This document shows positions 5,017 to 13,845 of a DNA stretch of 64,000 nucleotides, piece by piece. Source of the stretch: Alphaproteobacteria bacterium (GTDB lineage Bacteria; Pseudomonadota; Alphaproteobacteria; DSM-16000; Inquilinaceae); assembly GCA_028277405.1 (NCBI GenBank), contig JANQGH010000098.1:124001-188000 (forward strand), in the 5' to 3' direction. How positions within the stretch are numbered: the stretch's first letter is position 1; every line of letters starts with the position of its first letter. The translations under genes and the position numbers were made by a program. The notes under the pieces are model-generated. The model saw only the letters and a list, made by a program, of their open reading frames with translations, did no database searches and had not been told where the DNA came from.

Positions 5017-5445
5017 CTAGCCGGCGAGTGCTTGCAGCCTTTGTCTCGTGTCGGGCCAAAGCGCTTCGGGCAAGCGGTCGAAGGTTTCTTCTTGAGCCTT
5101 CTGCCACAGCGGGCTCGCCCTTTTGAGCAGAGCCCGGCCTTCATCCGTCAGAGACAGGAGCCGTACCCGGGCGTCGTTTCGATCTGGCGAATCGGCCAGC
5201 AGGCCGCGCCGTATCATGGGCCGCAGGTTGCGGGTCAATGTGGTCCGTTCCATGCCCAGCCCGTCGGCAAGCGCACCCAGCGGCACCTGCGGTTGCTGAG
5301 ACAGGGCAATCAGGATCGAAAACTGGCCCGCCCTCAAGCCGACCGGGCGCAGTGCCTCTTCATAGCGCCGCGATACCATCCGGGCGGCCCGGCGCAGATT
5401 GAACATCACGCAATCGGACGGAACGTTCGAGAAATCATCCAGCAT
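5017..5445 (-). CDS. MarR-family transcriptional regulator
   Basis: A 142-residue regulator starting MLDDFSNVPSDCVMFNLRRA, with the winged-helix core LGALADGLGMERTTLTRNLRPMI and wing DRNDARVRLLSLTDEG characteristic of MarR. These proteins dimerise and repress, losing DNA affinity on binding small phenolic or other ligands. The reading frame stays open 28 codons further upstream, but that extension runs through an intrinsic terminator of the preceding gene and a palindrome, so ATG at 5445 is preferred. The convergent SDR gene ends four bases away; no target gene is obvious besides itself. Confidence 0.88.
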   Translation of the reverse strand: MLDDFSNVPSDCVMFNLRRAARMVSRRYEEALRPVGLRAGQFSILIALSQQPQVPLGALADGLGMERTTLTRNLRPMIRRGLLADSPDRNDARVRLLSLTDEGRALLKRASPLWQKAQEETFDRLPEALWPDTRQRLQALAG

Positions 5446-5457
5446 GGCCGGTAAATA

Positions 5458-5467
5458 TGCATATGCA
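5458..5467. promoter_or_regulatory. Candidate MarR operator, perfect TGCATATGCA palindrome
   Basis: TGCATATGCA overlaps a second palindrome, ATATGCATAT (5455-5464). Both lie 10-22 bases upstream of the chosen MarR start. Sites built on TGCATATGCA are common for MarR-family proteins, so autoregulation is a reasonable inference. Confidence 0.45.
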
Positions 5468-5481
5468 CTTATCGAGTCAAG

Positions 5482-5543: not shown

Positions 5544-6458
5544 CTAACCCGTAATCACAGCTTGAATATCCTCTGCGGTATCCAGCTCAAGTATCCGATC
5601 GGCCAGGTCCCTGGTCTCCGCTTCCGGCCGCGCACCCAGTTCCTCGCTCAACAAATGGGCGAAGCCGTCGAAGTGCTCCAGCGCCCGTTGCCGGCCGTGC
5701 AGCGCCAGATGGGCGCGCATGGCAATCCGCTGGGCCGGCTCAAAGAACGGATCCTGCGCGATCATCCAGTGCGCCCGATCCAGGGCCGCGAACGGCTTAT
5801 TGATGCGAAGATCGGTCCTGGCGGCCGCCAAGTTCAGGCTCAGCTGCAGATCCATGATCCGTCCGCGCTCAGAGGCCAGCCAGTCGTCGAAGACCGGGTC
5901 CAGCCCGTCCAGCCCGTCCAGGAACGGCGCGCGATTGACGGCTTCCAAAGCCGAGCCCGCCTCGACATCGTCGCCGGTCGCCGCCGCGTCCATGAGGCGC
6001 TGCACGTCGCAGGTCACGACATCGTCGCGGCGCTCGATCAGTCGGGTTCCGACGGTGAAGGCCTTGTCAAACGCCGGACCGATGGACTGGCGCAGGGCGT
6101 AGAGCGCCTGGCGCAGGTTGGCCAGCGCGTCCTTGTCCTCCTTCGTCGACCACAGCAGGGTGGCCAGGCGATCGCGCGGCCAAGAGCCGGCACCATCGGT
6201 GGCAAGGAAGCCGATCAGGGCCTTCGCCTTTCGGGTCAGGCATTCGATCTTGCGGCTGTCGTTGCCAACCACCGAGAACCCGCCAAGCAGGCGCAGCGAC
6301 AAGATCGACTTGTCTGTTTGTTCTTCGGTGCGATGTACCCAGCCGGCCCGTGTTCTGGCCACTAAGCGAACATCATTACCGTTGGCGGGGTGAAGCGCGT
6401 TCGCCGCCATAAAGGCGTCAATCGGCTGAGGCGCGGTAAGCTGAATCGTCATACCCAT
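5544..6458 (-). CDS. BTAD/SARP-like transcriptional activator-domain protein
   Basis: A 304-residue protein. After a poorly conserved leader of about 50 residues comes a winged-helix segment (SLRLLGGFSVV, then RKAKALIGFLATDG...WPRDRLATLLW, roughly 53-105) with ANLRQALYALRQSIG. This is followed by a C-terminal helical-repeat region (about 150-300) containing NLAAARTDLRINKPFAALDR. This arrangement is that of the bacterial transcriptional activator domain found in SARP regulators and in alphaproteobacterial cyclase-associated proteins. It is downstream of the cyclase gene on the same strand but has its own 107-base leader with a perfect CRP-like palindrome. DNA binding is likely; targets unknown. 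Confidence 0.78.
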   Translation of the reverse strand: MGMTIQLTAPQPIDAFMAANALHPANGNDVRLVARTRAGWVHRTEEQTDKSILSLRLLGGFSVVGNDSRKIECLTRKAKALIGFLATDGAGSWPRDRLATLLWSTKEDKDALANLRQALYALRQSIGPAFDKAFTVGTRLIERRDDVVTCDVQRLMDAAATGDDVEAGSALEAVNRAPFLDGLDGLDPVFDDWLASERGRIMDLQLSLNLAAARTDLRINKPFAALDRAHWMIAQDPFFEPAQRIAMRAHLALHGRQRALEHFDGFAHLLSEELGARPEAETRDLADRILELDTAEDIQAVITG

Positions 6459-6525
6459 TTTCTTGAACGTCCTATCGTCAAGCGGATCGGATATGATGGT
6501 TCTAGAGATGGCGGCCCGGGCTGGC

Positions 6526-6541
6526 TGTGAACCGGTTCACA
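6526..6541. promoter_or_regulatory. Perfect 16-bp CRP-type box upstream of the BTAD gene
   Basis: TGTGAACCGGTTCACA is a complete palindrome matching TGTGA-N6-TCACA. It lies 68 bases upstream of the BTAD start and 25 bases after the end of the cyclase gene. The CRP-type regulator encoded at 9475 keeps the Arg-Glu recognition pair for TGTGA. The central CCGG also fits LacI-family operators, but no LacI gene is in the window. Confidence 0.6.
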
Positions 6542-8473: not shown

Positions 8474-9109
8474 TCAGCCAGCAGGAAAGCGGGCCAACAG
8501 CGCCTCGGCCCGTTCAGCCCCCCAACGCACCGGCCGCAACGCTTCCGACGGTACGGACTCCGCCAGCCCGCTTCTGCTCGCGGGTGGGGCCGGGGCCGCC
8601 TCGTCGGCACGATCGGCGGGCGGTTCGGCCGCCGCCGGGGCCGTGACATCGACGCCAAACCCCGGCGTTAGGACCACGCCGGAGTTGATCGCCAGGTCGG
8701 TGACCTGAACCTCGCCCGCGACCACGAACACTTCCGTGCCCGTTTCGGACAGCGCGGTTGCCCAATCGGTGCCGCGTACCGACACGATTGCCTGGCGCGT
8801 TCGGATCTGGAAATGCGTGGGATCCTCCGTTGGTTCGACCCGGGTGCGCACGGCGCCCGTATCGAGGTCGAGCGTGTCGATCACGCCGTCGCCGCTGCTG
8901 TCGGACAAGGAATAGGTCGCATCGGCGCCGAGGCTGACGCTGACATCCGGCCGGCACGACAGAAGCTGCCAACCCGGCTCGTCCGCGTCGGCGACCAGTT
9001 CGCAGACCTGCTGTCCGCTGGCCGCGCCCGTCAACGAGATGGCGAGCAGCCAGGCGGCAAACAGACTGCCGCGAAATAGCCAAAAAAAGCTGATTGATCG
9101 ATAGCCCAT
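8474..9109 (-). CDS. Exported FecR-domain protein
   Basis: A 211-residue protein with an N-terminal export signal (helix FAAWLLAISLTGAASG, about 17-32). Next is a FecR-like region with HFQIRTRQAIVSVRGTDWA (about 98-116) and TEVFVVAGEVQVTDLA, then a Pro/Ala-rich linker from about 150. FecR-like domains sense periplasmic conditions, and isolated forms are commonly encoded beside CHASE2 cyclases, as here. It probably acts as the periplasmic input for the cyclase. It is the first gene of the minus-strand unit and diverges from crp. Confidence 0.83.
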   Translation of the reverse strand: MGYRSISFFWLFRGSLFAAWLLAISLTGAASGQQVCELVADADEPGWQLLSCRPDVSVSLGADATYSLSDSSGDGVIDTLDLDTGAVRTRVEPTEDPTHFQIRTRQAIVSVRGTDWATALSETGTEVFVVAGEVQVTDLAINSGVVLTPGFGVDVTAPAAAEPPADRADEAAPAPPASRSGLAESVPSEALRPVRWGAERAEALLARFPAG

Positions 9110-9474: not shown

Positions 9475-10185
9475 ATGACGGAGGCCGAACAGGTAAGGCG
9501 GTGGTTGACCCGCTCCAGCCTTTTTGGAGACCTGGAAACAGGTGATCTCGATCCTTTGGTGTCGCTATGCCGACGCCGCGAACTGGCGCGTGGCCAGATG
9601 CTCTTCAACCAGGGGGACGAGGCGGACGGGCTTTACATCGTCACCGAGGGCATTCTGCGGATCGTCCTGGTCGCCGGCGATGGCAGAGAGCTGACACTGA
9701 ACCTCATGGAACCCGGCGACGTGGTCGGCGAAATCTCCTTGCTCGACGGTTTGCCACGCAGTGCCGGCGCCATCGCGCTGACCGAGGTCAGTTGTCTGGC
9801 CCTCAGCCGGACCGACTTCGAGGCCGCCATGGATGAGAATCCAGGCCTTTCGCGCCAGATCATCTACGCGCTGTGCGAGCTGTTGCGGCGAAACACCAGC
9901 ATCATCGGCGACCGCGCCTTCCTGGACCTGCGCGGCCGGCTGTGCCGCTTGCTCAGTGCGCTCGCCATCGGCCACGGGCGGCCCGGCGATGACGGCGCGA
10001 CCGAAATCGCCGTCCCCATCACGCAGAGCGACCTGGCGACCATGCTGGGGGCCACCCGCGAGGCCGTGAACAAGCAGATGAACGCGTTGGCGAAAGTCGG
10101 TCTCGTCCGATTGGCACAAGGGCGGGCCCTGATCCTCGACCGCGACGGGTTGGCCGAAATCACCGAGGAACAGGCGGCCGGTTGA
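9475..10185 (+). CDS. CRP/FNR-family cyclic-nucleotide-responsive regulator
   Basis: A 236-residue regulator. The N-terminal beta-roll carries a phosphate-binding cassette GEISLLDGLPRSAGAI with Glu86, Arg95 and Ser96, the residues that hold the cyclic nucleotide in CRP. The C-terminal winged helix (about 178-207) has recognition helix ATREAVNKQMNAL. Its Arg-Glu pair aligns with Arg180-Glu181 of E. coli CRP, with Lys in place of Arg185. No Cys cluster of FNR type is seen. Its stop overlaps the TTG start of crtY, so it should be co-transcribed with the carotenoid genes. Likely ligand and partner: the product of the nearby CHASE2 cyclase. Confidence 0.9.
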   Translation: MTEAEQVRRWLTRSSLFGDLETGDLDPLVSLCRRRELARGQMLFNQGDEADGLYIVTEGILRIVLVAGDGRELTLNLMEPGDVVGEISLLDGLPRSAGAIALTEVSCLALSRTDFEAAMDENPGLSRQIIYALCELLRRNTSIIGDRAFLDLRGRLCRLLSALAIGHGRPGDDGATEIAVPITQSDLATMLGATREAVNKQMNALAKVGLVRLAQGRALILDRDGLAEITEEQAAG

Positions 10186-11360
10186 CCCACGGGACGACAA
10201 CGCCGGGCTCGGAATCGCAGCCCTATGACGTTGTCATCGTTGGCGGTGGCCTCTCCGGCTGCCTGACGGCGTATCGCCTGTCCATGCGCGGACAGCTCAA
10301 GATCCTGCTGCTGGAGGCGGGGCCGAAGCTGGGCGGCAATCATACCTGGTCGTTTCACGAGACCGATGTTTCCGCGGACGTCCGAGACTGGCTTGCGCCC
10401 TTTGTCGCCCATCGCTGGTCTGGCCACGACGTCCGTTTTCCTGCCTATCACCGCACGCTGCAGGGCAGCTATTGGTCCGTGACGTCCGATCGCCTGCGCG
10501 CGGTGATGGCGGCGACCACGGGCCTCGACGTTCGCCTCGATGCTGCTGTGGACGAGGTATCGGTCGGGTCCATTCGGCTTGCAGACGGCCATGTGTTGCC
10601 GGCAAAGGCCGTCTTGGACGCCCGTGGCGATCGGGGCGCCGGCACGATCATTCGCCGCTATCAGAAGTTCCTCGGCCAAGAGGTGGAACTGGCGTCGCCG
10701 CACGGCCTCACCCGGCCGATCCTGATGGACGCGTCGGTCGACCAGGCGGACGGCTATCGTTTCATCTATGTCCTGCCGTTCACGGACACCCAACTGTTGA
10801 TCGAGGACACCTACTACGCGGACGGACCCGACCGCGACGCCGACCTGTTGCGGGGCCGCATCGCCGAATATGCGAGCGCGCAGGGCTGGTCGATTGCACG
10901 ACTGATCCGCGAGGAGGCCGGCACCTTGCCCATCGCGCTGGGCGGCAGGCCGCCGGCGTTCGAAGACGATCAGCCCCCGTCGATCGGGTTGCGCGCCGGC
11001 CTCTTTCATCCAACGACCGGCTATTCGTTGCCCGACGCGGCATCCCTCGCCGACCATCTGGCCAGCCTCGACGCGCTTGACGCCGATGCGGCACGGCAAG
11101 CCATCGCTGATTGGACGGCCGGGCGATGGCGGCGGCGCGGCTTTTATCGGCTGCTGAACAGAATGATGTTCCTTGCCGGCCACTCGCAGGATCGTTGGCG
11201 GGTCATGGCCCGTTTCTATCGATTGCCGGAGCCGCTGATCGCGCGCTTTTACGCCGACCGCTTGACGTTCGCCGACAGAGCCCGACTTTTGATCGGCAAG
11301 CCGCCGGTCCCTATCCGGGGTGCCCTCTCCGTCGTTTCGGAACGTTCGCTGACCTCATGA
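10182..11360 (+). CDS. crtY: Lycopene beta-cyclase
   Basis: A 392-residue flavoprotein of the CrtY type that closes both ends of lycopene to give beta-carotene. The N-terminal Rossmann motif VVIVGGGLSGCLTAYRL is followed by LLLEAGPKLGGNHTWSFHE, a CrtY signature; DGYRFIYVLPFT, LIEDTYYAD, and GLRAGLFHPTTGYSLPDA are further family segments. The only start codon upstream of the Rossmann motif is TTG at 10182, overlapping the crp stop, which implies translational coupling. The end overlaps crtI by four bases (ATGA). Confidence 0.95.
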   Translation: MTHGTTTPGSESQPYDVVIVGGGLSGCLTAYRLSMRGQLKILLLEAGPKLGGNHTWSFHETDVSADVRDWLAPFVAHRWSGHDVRFPAYHRTLQGSYWSVTSDRLRAVMAATTGLDVRLDAAVDEVSVGSIRLADGHVLPAKAVLDARGDRGAGTIIRRYQKFLGQEVELASPHGLTRPILMDASVDQADGYRFIYVLPFTDTQLLIEDTYYADGPDRDADLLRGRIAEYASAQGWSIARLIREEAGTLPIALGGRPPAFEDDQPPSIGLRAGLFHPTTGYSLPDAASLADHLASLDALDADAARQAIADWTAGRWRRRGFYRLLNRMMFLAGHSQDRWRVMARFYRLPEPLIARFYADRLTFADRARLLIGKPPVPIRGALSVVSERSLTS

Positions 11361-12883
11361 ACGCTAACGCTGCTGTCGATCATCCGGGTACCCGCACCGC
11401 TGTTGTCATCGGTGCGGGCTTTGGCGGGTTGGCCTTGGCCATCCGCCTGCAAAGCGCCGGCATCGCAACAACCCTGGTCGAACGGCGGGACAAGCCGGGC
11501 GGACGGGCCTATGTCTACGAGGATGGCGGCTACATTTTTGACGCCGGCCCCACCGTAATTACCGACCCAACGGCGCTGGAGGAACTGTTCGCCCTGTCGG
11601 GTCGAAGGCTGGCCGACTATGTCGACCTGCTTCCGGTCACGCCGTTCTATCGCCTGATCTGGGACGACGGTTACGCGTTCGACTATGTGAACGATCAGGC
11701 GGCGCTCGATCGGCAGATCGCGGAATTGTCGCCGCGCGACGTTGCGGGCTATCAGCGCTTCCTGGCGTACTCTCGGGCCGTCTTCGATGAGGGCTACCTG
11801 AAGCTCGGTACCAAGCCGTTCTTGCGCTTCTGGGACATGGTGCGCGTCGCACCGCAACTGGTGCGCCTCGAAAGTCACGCCAGCGTCTATGGCAAGGTGG
11901 CGCGCTTCATCGAAAACGAAAAGCTGCGCCAGGCGTTCAGTTTCCATTCCCTGCTCGTGGGCGGAAATCCGTTCGCGACCTCCGCCATCTATGCGCTCAT
12001 CCATGCGCTGGAGCGTGAATGGGGCGTGCACTTCCCGCGTGGCGGGACCGGCGCCCTGGTCCAGGGCTTGATACGCTTGTTTGAGGACCTCGGCGGGCGG
12101 GTCCTGTTGGACGCACCGGTCACCAGGATCGATGTGCGTGACGACCGCGTGTCCGGCGTGGAGCTTGAGAGCGGTCAGCGGATTGACTGCGACATCGTCG
12201 CCAGCAACGCGGATCTGGTGCACACTTACGGCACGCTCTTGGCCGAAACCGAACGCGGGCGGCGCGAGTCGGCCAAGCTGGCCAAGCGGCGCTTTTCCAA
12301 CTCGCTGTTCGTGGTCTATTTCGGCGCGGCGAAGACCTGGCCGGACCTGGCCCACCATACCGTGCTGTTCGGACCGCGCTATCGCGGCTTGATCGAAGAG
12401 GTGTTCAAGGGTCCGAACCTGCCGGACGATTTCTCGCTCTACCTGCATGCGCCGACAGCGACCGATCCGTCCCTGGCCCCGCCGGGCTGCACCTCGTTCT
12501 ACGTCCTGTCGCCGGTTCCGCATCTCGGTGCGGCGGAGATCGATTGGTCGGTCGAAGGGCCGCGCTATCGCGATCGGATTCTCCGACATTTGGACCAAAC
12601 CACCGTGCCCGGTCTCTTGGATTCGATTGAGACGACGCGCATTTTCACACCGGCGGATTTTCGCGACACCTTAAACAGCCATCTGGGTTCCGCCTTCTCC
12701 CTAGAACCGATCCTGCGGCAGAGCGCCTATTTCCGCGCGCACAATCGCGACGACCAGATACGGGGGCTCTATTTCGTCGGCGCCGGCACCCATCCGGGCG
12801 CGGGCATTCCCGGTGTCGTCGGTTCGGCCAAGGCGACGGCCGGCCTCGTGCTCGAAGACTTTGCGGTCGCCAGCGCCGCCTAA
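11357..12883 (+). CDS. crtI: Phytoene desaturase (lycopene-forming type)
   Basis: A 508-residue FAD enzyme that desaturates phytoene to lycopene. It has VVIGAGFGGLALAIRLQ near the N terminus, ERRDKPGGRAYVYEDGGYIF with DAGPTVITDP, and the C-terminal FAD segment GLYFVGAGTHPGAGIPGVVGSAKA, all typical of bacterial CrtI. The frame is open further upstream into crtY, but ATG at 11357 overlaps the crtY stop and gives the usual CrtI length. It is the middle gene of crtY-crtI-crtB. Confidence 0.96.
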   Translation: MNANAAVDHPGTRTAVVIGAGFGGLALAIRLQSAGIATTLVERRDKPGGRAYVYEDGGYIFDAGPTVITDPTALEELFALSGRRLADYVDLLPVTPFYRLIWDDGYAFDYVNDQAALDRQIAELSPRDVAGYQRFLAYSRAVFDEGYLKLGTKPFLRFWDMVRVAPQLVRLESHASVYGKVARFIENEKLRQAFSFHSLLVGGNPFATSAIYALIHALEREWGVHFPRGGTGALVQGLIRLFEDLGGRVLLDAPVTRIDVRDDRVSGVELESGQRIDCDIVASNADLVHTYGTLLAETERGRRESAKLAKRRFSNSLFVVYFGAAKTWPDLAHHTVLFGPRYRGLIEEVFKGPNLPDDFSLYLHAPTATDPSLAPPGCTSFYVLSPVPHLGAAEIDWSVEGPRYRDRILRHLDQTTVPGLLDSIETTRIFTPADFRDTLNSHLGSAFSLEPILRQSAYFRAHNRDDQIRGLYFVGAGTHPGAGIPGVVGSAKATAGLVLEDFAVASAA

Positions 12884-12900
12884 CGCGGATTGACCGGGAT

Positions 12901-13845
12901 ATGAACAGCGAGCTGATCAAGCTCAGCGAGCGTGTCATTGCCGAAGGCTCGAAGAGTTTTGCGGCTGCGTCGCGCCTGCTGGATCGCCGCGCCCGGGAAT
13001 CGGCGGTTCTGCTGTACGCCTGGTGCCGCTACTGCGACGACATGGTCGACGGTCAGACCCTGGGGCAAGGTCGCGTCGACAGGGACGGCTCGGCCTCGGA
13101 GCGGCTGGAGGATCTGCGCCGTCAAACCGCCGCGGCATTGGAAAGCTCGGTCCCGGTCGACCCGCCGTTCGAGGCGCTACGCGTCGTTGTCCGCCGCCAC
13201 GGCATCCCACACGCCGCCCCGCGCCACCTGCTGGACGGCTTCTCGCTCGACCTGACCAACGTTCGCTGCGCGACATTTCAGGACACTTTGTTGTACGCCT
13301 ACCATGTCGCCGGTGTCGTCGGCCTGATGATGGCCTGGACAATGGATGTCGCCGACGAAGCCACCCTTGATCGCGCCTGCGACCTGGGTCTTGCGTTGCA
13401 ACTGACCAACATCGCCCGCGATGTTTTGGCGGATGCAGAGATCGGCCGTATCTATTTGCCGGTCGACTGGTTGGACGACGCGGGTGTCCCCCTCGATCCG
13501 GATCGGTTTTCCGATCACAAACAGCCTCTGGCGGCTGTCGTTGGCCGCTTGCTTGGTCAGGCTGAACCCTACTATGGCTCGGCGCTGGTCGGGATTGGCG
13601 CGCTGCGGGCGCGGCGGGCGTGGTCGATCGCGGCAGCCCGCGCCGTCTATCGCGAAATCGGCGTGACGGTCCGTCGCTCAGGTGCCGAGGCTTGGGATAG
13701 TCGCGCCGGGGTCTCCAAGCCGCGCAAGCTGGCGCTGCTCGCGGGCGCCTTGGCGCAGACGGTCTGGGTCAAGGCGGGCCTGGCAAATCTCGACACTGGC
13801 CGCGAGGGGCTGTGGCGTCGGCCGTCGCTTACGCCGTCGACCTGA
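12901..13845 (+). CDS. crtB: 15-cis-phytoene synthase
   Basis: A 314-residue trans-isoprenyl-diphosphate synthase that joins two geranylgeranyl diphosphates into phytoene. The first Asp-rich motif is CRYCDDMVD (about 41-50) and the second is LTNIARDVLADAEIGRIYLP (about 163-182), with YHVAGVVGLMM between them. It follows crtI by 17 bases. Its last 17 bases overlap the convergent crtZ, so no terminator separates them. Confidence 0.96.
   Translation: MNSELIKLSERVIAEGSKSFAAASRLLDRRARESAVLLYAWCRYCDDMVDGQTLGQGRVDRDGSASERLEDLRRQTAAALESSVPVDPPFEALRVVVRRHGIPHAAPRHLLDGFSLDLTNVRCATFQDTLLYAYHVAGVVGLMMAWTMDVADEATLDRACDLGLALQLTNIARDVLADAEIGRIYLPVDWLDDAGVPLDPDRFSDHKQPLAAVVGRLLGQAEPYYGSALVGIGALRARRAWSIAAARAVYREIGVTVRRSGAEAWDSRAGVSKPRKLALLAGALAQTVWVKAGLANLDTGREGLWRRPSLTPST

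Follow-up and report, generated by a model that had tools for sequence, protein, structure and literature searches.

GlxR of Corynebacterium and Rv3676 of Mycobacterium tuberculosis, global regulators of Actinobacteria, both carry a recognition helix of the form [ST]RE.VNK. The GlxR operator consensus is TGTGANNTANNTCACA (PMC4254451). In Sinorhizobium meliloti, CHASE2 adenylate cyclases feed a CRP-like regulator, Clr; the part of PMC5498481 on which we draw gives the Clr box as TGTTN8AACA, or HGTYHCNNNNGRWACA, and includes among the Clr-controlled genes one that encodes a FecR-domain protein. A pairing of FecR with CHASE2 is also found in the BiofilmReg operons of Burkholderia, which encode FecR together with a CHASE2 histidine kinase (PMC5192318).

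We analyzed a 64,000-nucleotide stretch of alphaproteobacterial DNA, hereafter the window, taken from a 288 kb contig of a 6.2 Mb genome. It encodes a CRP-type protein, a FecR-domain protein, a CHASE2-containing nucleotide cyclase and a regulator with a BTAD domain (Table 1), and it resembles each of the described systems in part. The recognition helix of the CRP-type protein is like that of GlxR and Rv3676, but the window's genome differs from theirs in having few sites, a GC-rich site center, and a linked pair of genes for FecR and a CHASE2 cyclase. With E. coli CRP the locus shares a TGTGA-N6-TCACA operator, counterparts of Arg180 and Glu181, and the Glu, Arg and Ser of the cyclic-nucleotide pocket. 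With the Clr system it shares the arrangement of CHASE2 cyclase and CRP-like regulator; the palindrome at 6526-6541, however, reads TGTG...CACA instead of TGTTN8AACA, and in the portion of PMC5498481 used here no link from Clr to a BTAD protein is seen. The likeness to BiofilmReg lies in the pairing of a FecR-domain protein with a CHASE2 sensor, but there the output is a two-component system, while in the window it is a cyclase and a CRP-type protein.

We consider it probable that the CRP-type protein encoded nearby uses the palindrome TGTGAACCGGTTCACA, which lies in the BTAD leader, as an operator, and that the palindrome belongs to a local module based on a cyclic nucleotide, in which the CRP controls BTAD expression.

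Table 1. Features of the locus, in window coordinates
Feature	Position	Strand	Basis
MarR-family regulator	5017..5454	-	domain match, ORF coordinates
BTAD/SARP-like regulator, 304 aa, predicted target gene	5544..6458	-	Pfam BTAD
Possible -10-like hexamer TAGAAC, weak	6499..6504	-	read from sequence
Predicted operator of CRP-type protein, TGTGAACCGGTTCACA	6526..6541	.	matches upstream of orthologs, matrix score
CHASE2 domain plus class III nucleotide cyclase, 631 aa	6566..8461	-	domains, alignment
FecR-domain protein	8474..9109	-	domain match
CRP/FNR-superfamily regulator, 236 aa	9475..10185	+	domain matches; helix TREAVNKQ; Glu86, Arg95, Ser96

The palindrome and its expected frequency

The initial annotation described TGTGAACCGGTTCACA as a full 16-base palindrome of the form TGTGA-N6-TCACA in the BTAD leader. 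The match is indeed exact, occurs at exactly 6526-6541, and is one of a set of claimed coordinates that all hold. It consists of two copies of the half-site TGTGAACC, and the window contains no other perfect 16-base palindrome. It falls within the 107-bp gap that separates the cyclase stop (6566) from the BTAD ATG (6458), with its center 75 bp from the ATG.

Perfect palindromes of 16 bp are no rarity at this GC content, and one alone is unremarkable; the 288 kb contig contains 12, four of them intergenic. Nor is the TGTGA-N6-TCACA pattern over-represented in the window, where two occurrences with no more than one mismatch compare with 1.1 expected from a shuffle-based rate. A genome-wide search of the kind proposed at the outset as a check, made with this motif, returned four perfect matches, one of them inside a DeoR-type gene, against one for the reversed control and about two by our own base-composition estimate, which is not a clear enrichment. 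Allowing one mismatch raises the count to 40, against 11 for the reversed control, yet 40 is still below the shuffle-based rate of the window. Counts that exceed one reference and fall below the other are uninformative, and genome-wide enrichment was dropped as a line of support. A rough gene call places about 15 of the 40 sites between genes, compared with 9.5% of the DNA and with 11% of the matches to permuted half-sites in contig C38, an excess that is suggestive only. A literature search for the exact 16-mer found no paper.

As an inverted repeat 25 bp past the cyclase stop, the site might be taken for an element that acts in RNA, either a terminator of the cyclase mRNA or an attenuator of the BTAD gene. 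We rejected this reading, which is scarcely credible: there is no T-run, no terminator was found, and the region folds no better than its shuffles (z = -0.28).

The CRP-type protein and the motif upstream of its orthologs

The CRP-type protein scores 92.6 bits against cNMP_binding and 61 bits against HTH_Crp_2, both above their cut-offs. Its recognition helix is ATREAVNKQMNAL, and it contains the cyclic-nucleotide ligand pattern G-E...R-[ST], at Glu86, Arg95 and Ser96. These assignments bear out the initial annotation, as does the equation of the helix Arg and Glu with Arg180 and Glu181 of E. coli CRP. A Lys occupies the position of Arg185. Against NCBIfam model PRK11753, the equivalog of E. 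coli CRP, the protein scores 77.4 bits, far below the cut-off of 266, and it is therefore designated CRP-type and not CRP itself. Its closest solved structures are GlxR and the M. tuberculosis CRP, Rv3676 (E ~1e-33). Across CRP orthologs the ligand Glu and Arg are invariant and the third ligand position is Ser or Thr, and the contact helix reads [TS]REA[VI]NKQ in all that were aligned.

Orthologs of the window protein would be expected to share any preference for TGTGA, and autoregulation is common among CRP-type genes; the DNA upstream of CRP orthologs was therefore searched for the motif. The closest orthologs in the sampled class occur in two other families and in one further genome. Family f37 provided 11 with upstream DNA, from four genera, at 42-49% identity to the window protein. 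A perfect TGTGA-N6-TCACA lies no more than 400 bp upstream in nine of these 11, which share ancestry and are not fully independent, and a version with one mismatch in two; dinucleotide shuffles of the same stretches gave a perfect match in about 0.02%. We also scanned the 11 stretches exhaustively with all 1024 five-base half-sites at the 13 spacers from 0 to 12. TGTGA with a spacer of 6 ranked first (9/11), followed by its own sub-motif GTGAA with a spacer of 4 (seven), and half-sites other than sub-motifs or shifted versions of TGTGA-N6 never occurred in more than two. Within genus g47, TGTGAACCnnTTCACA is conserved in a leader that otherwise mostly varies.

Further sites accompany CRP genes outside family f37. 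Two genomes of family f93, G108 and G161, have TATGAACCATGTCACA and TGTGAACCGCTGCACA, with one mismatch, by their CRP orthologs, and G161 has an additional perfect site, TGTGAACCCATTCACA, near its CRP gene, identical to the second-best site (C57:20347) of the window's own genome. The CRP orthologs of G043, G173 and G174 have no site within 400 bp upstream. Unlike the orthologs with sites, the window's own CRP gene has none in the 365-bp gap that separates it from the FecR gene, where the best position scores -1.9 bits on the matrix described below. Autoregulation of the CRP gene in this genome was accordingly rejected.

In genus g139, extra sites follow the CRP gene and precede a gene for a TPR-repeat protein. 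This gene adjoins the CRP ortholog in genera g139 and g138 (L200:4473-5795 and L202:3683-5062), with TGTGA-N6-TCACA sites in front, and it may be a conserved target of this CRP clade. The homolog in the window's own genome has no site, in contrast to the genes in f37.

It is this footprint among orthologs, and neither the palindrome as such nor the motif count, that gives the site in the BTAD leader its significance.

Matrix scoring and other candidate readers of the site

A matrix was built from 16 ortholog sites, none of them from the window's genome, with training scores from 15.7 to 26.0 bits. The site in the BTAD leader scores 25.3 bits, and the next best position in the 288 kb contig 14.1, a gap of 11 bits. 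When genus g47 is left out of the matrix the site still ranks first in the contig, by 9 bits. The commonest half-site among the training sites is TGTGAACC, and the site is identical to the ortholog motif, including its ACC extension. To judge from these comparisons, assignment of the site to this CRP clade is well supported, and the palindrome is very probably the docking site of the neighboring CRP-type protein; the earlier attribution of the site to that protein thus finds good support in the ortholog operators, the shared helix and the contig-wide top score.

The palindrome and motif counts given above, 12 in the contig and four against about two in the genome, would suit a chance palindrome with no regulatory role. 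Such an origin is very unlikely in view of the position 75 bp before a start codon, the identity to the ortholog motif through the ACC extension, and the 11-bit gap.

Another possible reader is a paralog encoded elsewhere in the same genome, where seven proteins have clear HTH_Crp_2 domains; one of these, at C38:256 kb, has a cyclic-nucleotide pocket and an RE helix, THREAVSRE. But the operator adjoins the genes of orthologs of the window protein, and the loci of its paralogs in this genome contain no site above 9.3 bits. We regard a paralog as an unlikely reader.

The initial annotation also remarked that the center of the site suits LacI-family proteins; on that reading the site would serve a LacI-family repressor whose gene lies elsewhere. 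Its central CpG within a perfect palindrome does have the formal pattern of a LacI-type operator, the ACCGGT core suits the family, and the genome has 27 LacI-type HTH genes, several with perfect 16-bp central-CG palindromes just upstream; one, at C53:73 kb, adjoins a site, ATGCAACCGGTTGCAT, that shares the core AACCGGTT. Distance and context speak against a LacI-family repressor, with no LacI-type gene within 70 kb of the site (the nearest is about 72 kb away) and no sugar operon after it. The 27 LacI loci contain no sequence within four mismatches of TGTGAACCGGTTCACA and no similar self-operator. On the CRP matrix the same-core site obtains -19 bits, and the outer TGTGA and TCACA arms match the CRP-ortholog operators, whose centers vary. 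The suggestion is weakened to the point that we consider it quite unlikely. The ATGCAACCGGTTGCAT palindrome lies at L112:1740-1755 (G000:C53), just upstream of its LacI-type gene, and LacI genes L094, L100, L103 and L114 likewise have perfect 16-bp central-CG palindromes upstream.

A second high-scoring site in the window's genome, TGTGAACCCATTCACA at G000:C57:20347-20362 (L184:2348-2363), scores 23.4 bits and is intergenic, about 74 bp before a 39-codon open reading frame with a signal-peptide-like start. It is also identical to an operator upstream of a CRP ortholog in G144.

The FecR and CHASE2-cyclase genes

That a cyclase gene stands between the site and the CRP gene, as first annotated, proved correct; a FecR-domain gene, previously unmentioned, lies there as well. 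The FecR gene is 12 bp before the cyclase gene, and the two are likely on the same transcript. Genes for FecR and a CHASE2 cyclase adjoin the CRP ortholog in G108 and G151 and lie about 2 kb from it in G158, and partial matches to one or both are found beside the CRP ortholog in G150, G152, G173 and G174. Because these genes recur beside CRP orthologs, we treat CRP, FecR and cyclase as a putative working unit, a view that the recurrence of the neighborhood in other families supports.

The cyclase keeps its metal-binding Asp445 and Asp489 and its transition-state Asn562 and Arg566, all invariant in the alignment. At the substrate-specifying positions it has Ser485 and Thr555, where relatives have Gln and Thr or Ser, and it shows neither the canonical adenylyl pair (Lys with Asp or Thr) nor the guanylyl pair (Glu with Cys). 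With so atypical a combination, cAMP is not a safe prediction as its product. The cyclase also has Met559 where relatives carry Asp or Glu.

Downstream, there is a 4-bp overlap between the CRP gene and the start of crtY, and crtI and crtB follow on the same strand (9475-13845), so that CRP and the carotenoid genes may be transcribed together. No crtY, crtI or crtB gene was seen beside CRP relatives elsewhere.

The BTAD gene and the proposed pathway

The predicted target matches Pfam BTAD at 48.6 bits (cut-off 22.1) and has a weak match to NCBIfam AfsR over residues 37-294; an N-terminal winged-helix DNA-binding domain is not called by Pfam. Neither 60 relatives nor a scan covering 84,980 species genomes yielded an ortholog of this gene. 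In its leader, the hexamer TAGAAC on the BTAD coding strand is 32 bp, center to center, from the site, the spacing of class II CRP promoters. A promoter scanner found no sigma-70 consensus promoter, and the geometry hints, weakly, at class II activation. In genus g47 the site is just downstream of a possible TTAACC...TAGGTT promoter, an arrangement that would fit repression.

In the mechanism that we propose, the FecR/CHASE2-cyclase pair would make a cyclic nucleotide in response to a signal, and the ligand-bound CRP dimer would then read the two TGTGAACC half-sites through its TREAVNKQ helices. Binding would change transcription of the BTAD gene, perhaps along with that of the MarR gene behind it. 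We infer that it is the window's CRP-type protein that occupies the site in the cell, that this cyclase supplies its ligand and that control falls on the BTAD gene. The locus had been read from the start as a complete local circuit, from signal through cyclase and CRP to BTAD regulator. That circuit is plausible and in part supported. The association of cyclase with CRP is seen again in other families; for the BTAD step no ortholog turned up, the cyclase does not allow its nucleotide to be predicted, and the CRP gene here lacks a site.

As a description of the locus, conventional gene regulation by an unusual combination of partners is well supported. A broader interpretation is tentative, and on balance we doubt it: that FecR, CHASE2 cyclase and CRP form a transferable module with an atypical cyclase active site, in which the CRP controls its own gene in relatives, but in this lineage has had its control moved to a BTAD-type regulator and has become linked to a carotenoid operon. 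A signal at the envelope would then reach, by way of a single local palindrome, both the pigment genes and a regulator of the second tier. CHASE2 cyclases and their FecR partners are common, but few of their outputs are known. With the cyclase, its FecR partner, the CRP and a predicted operator in one neighborhood, every step of the pathway is open to test, and targets in this CRP clade can be predicted with the help of the operator motif.

The MarR gene lies 89 bp downstream of the BTAD gene on the same strand, and is possibly co-transcribed with it. Directly upstream of the MarR gene, at 5455-5480, is an AT-rich palindrome, TGCATATGCA, likely a MarR self-operator.
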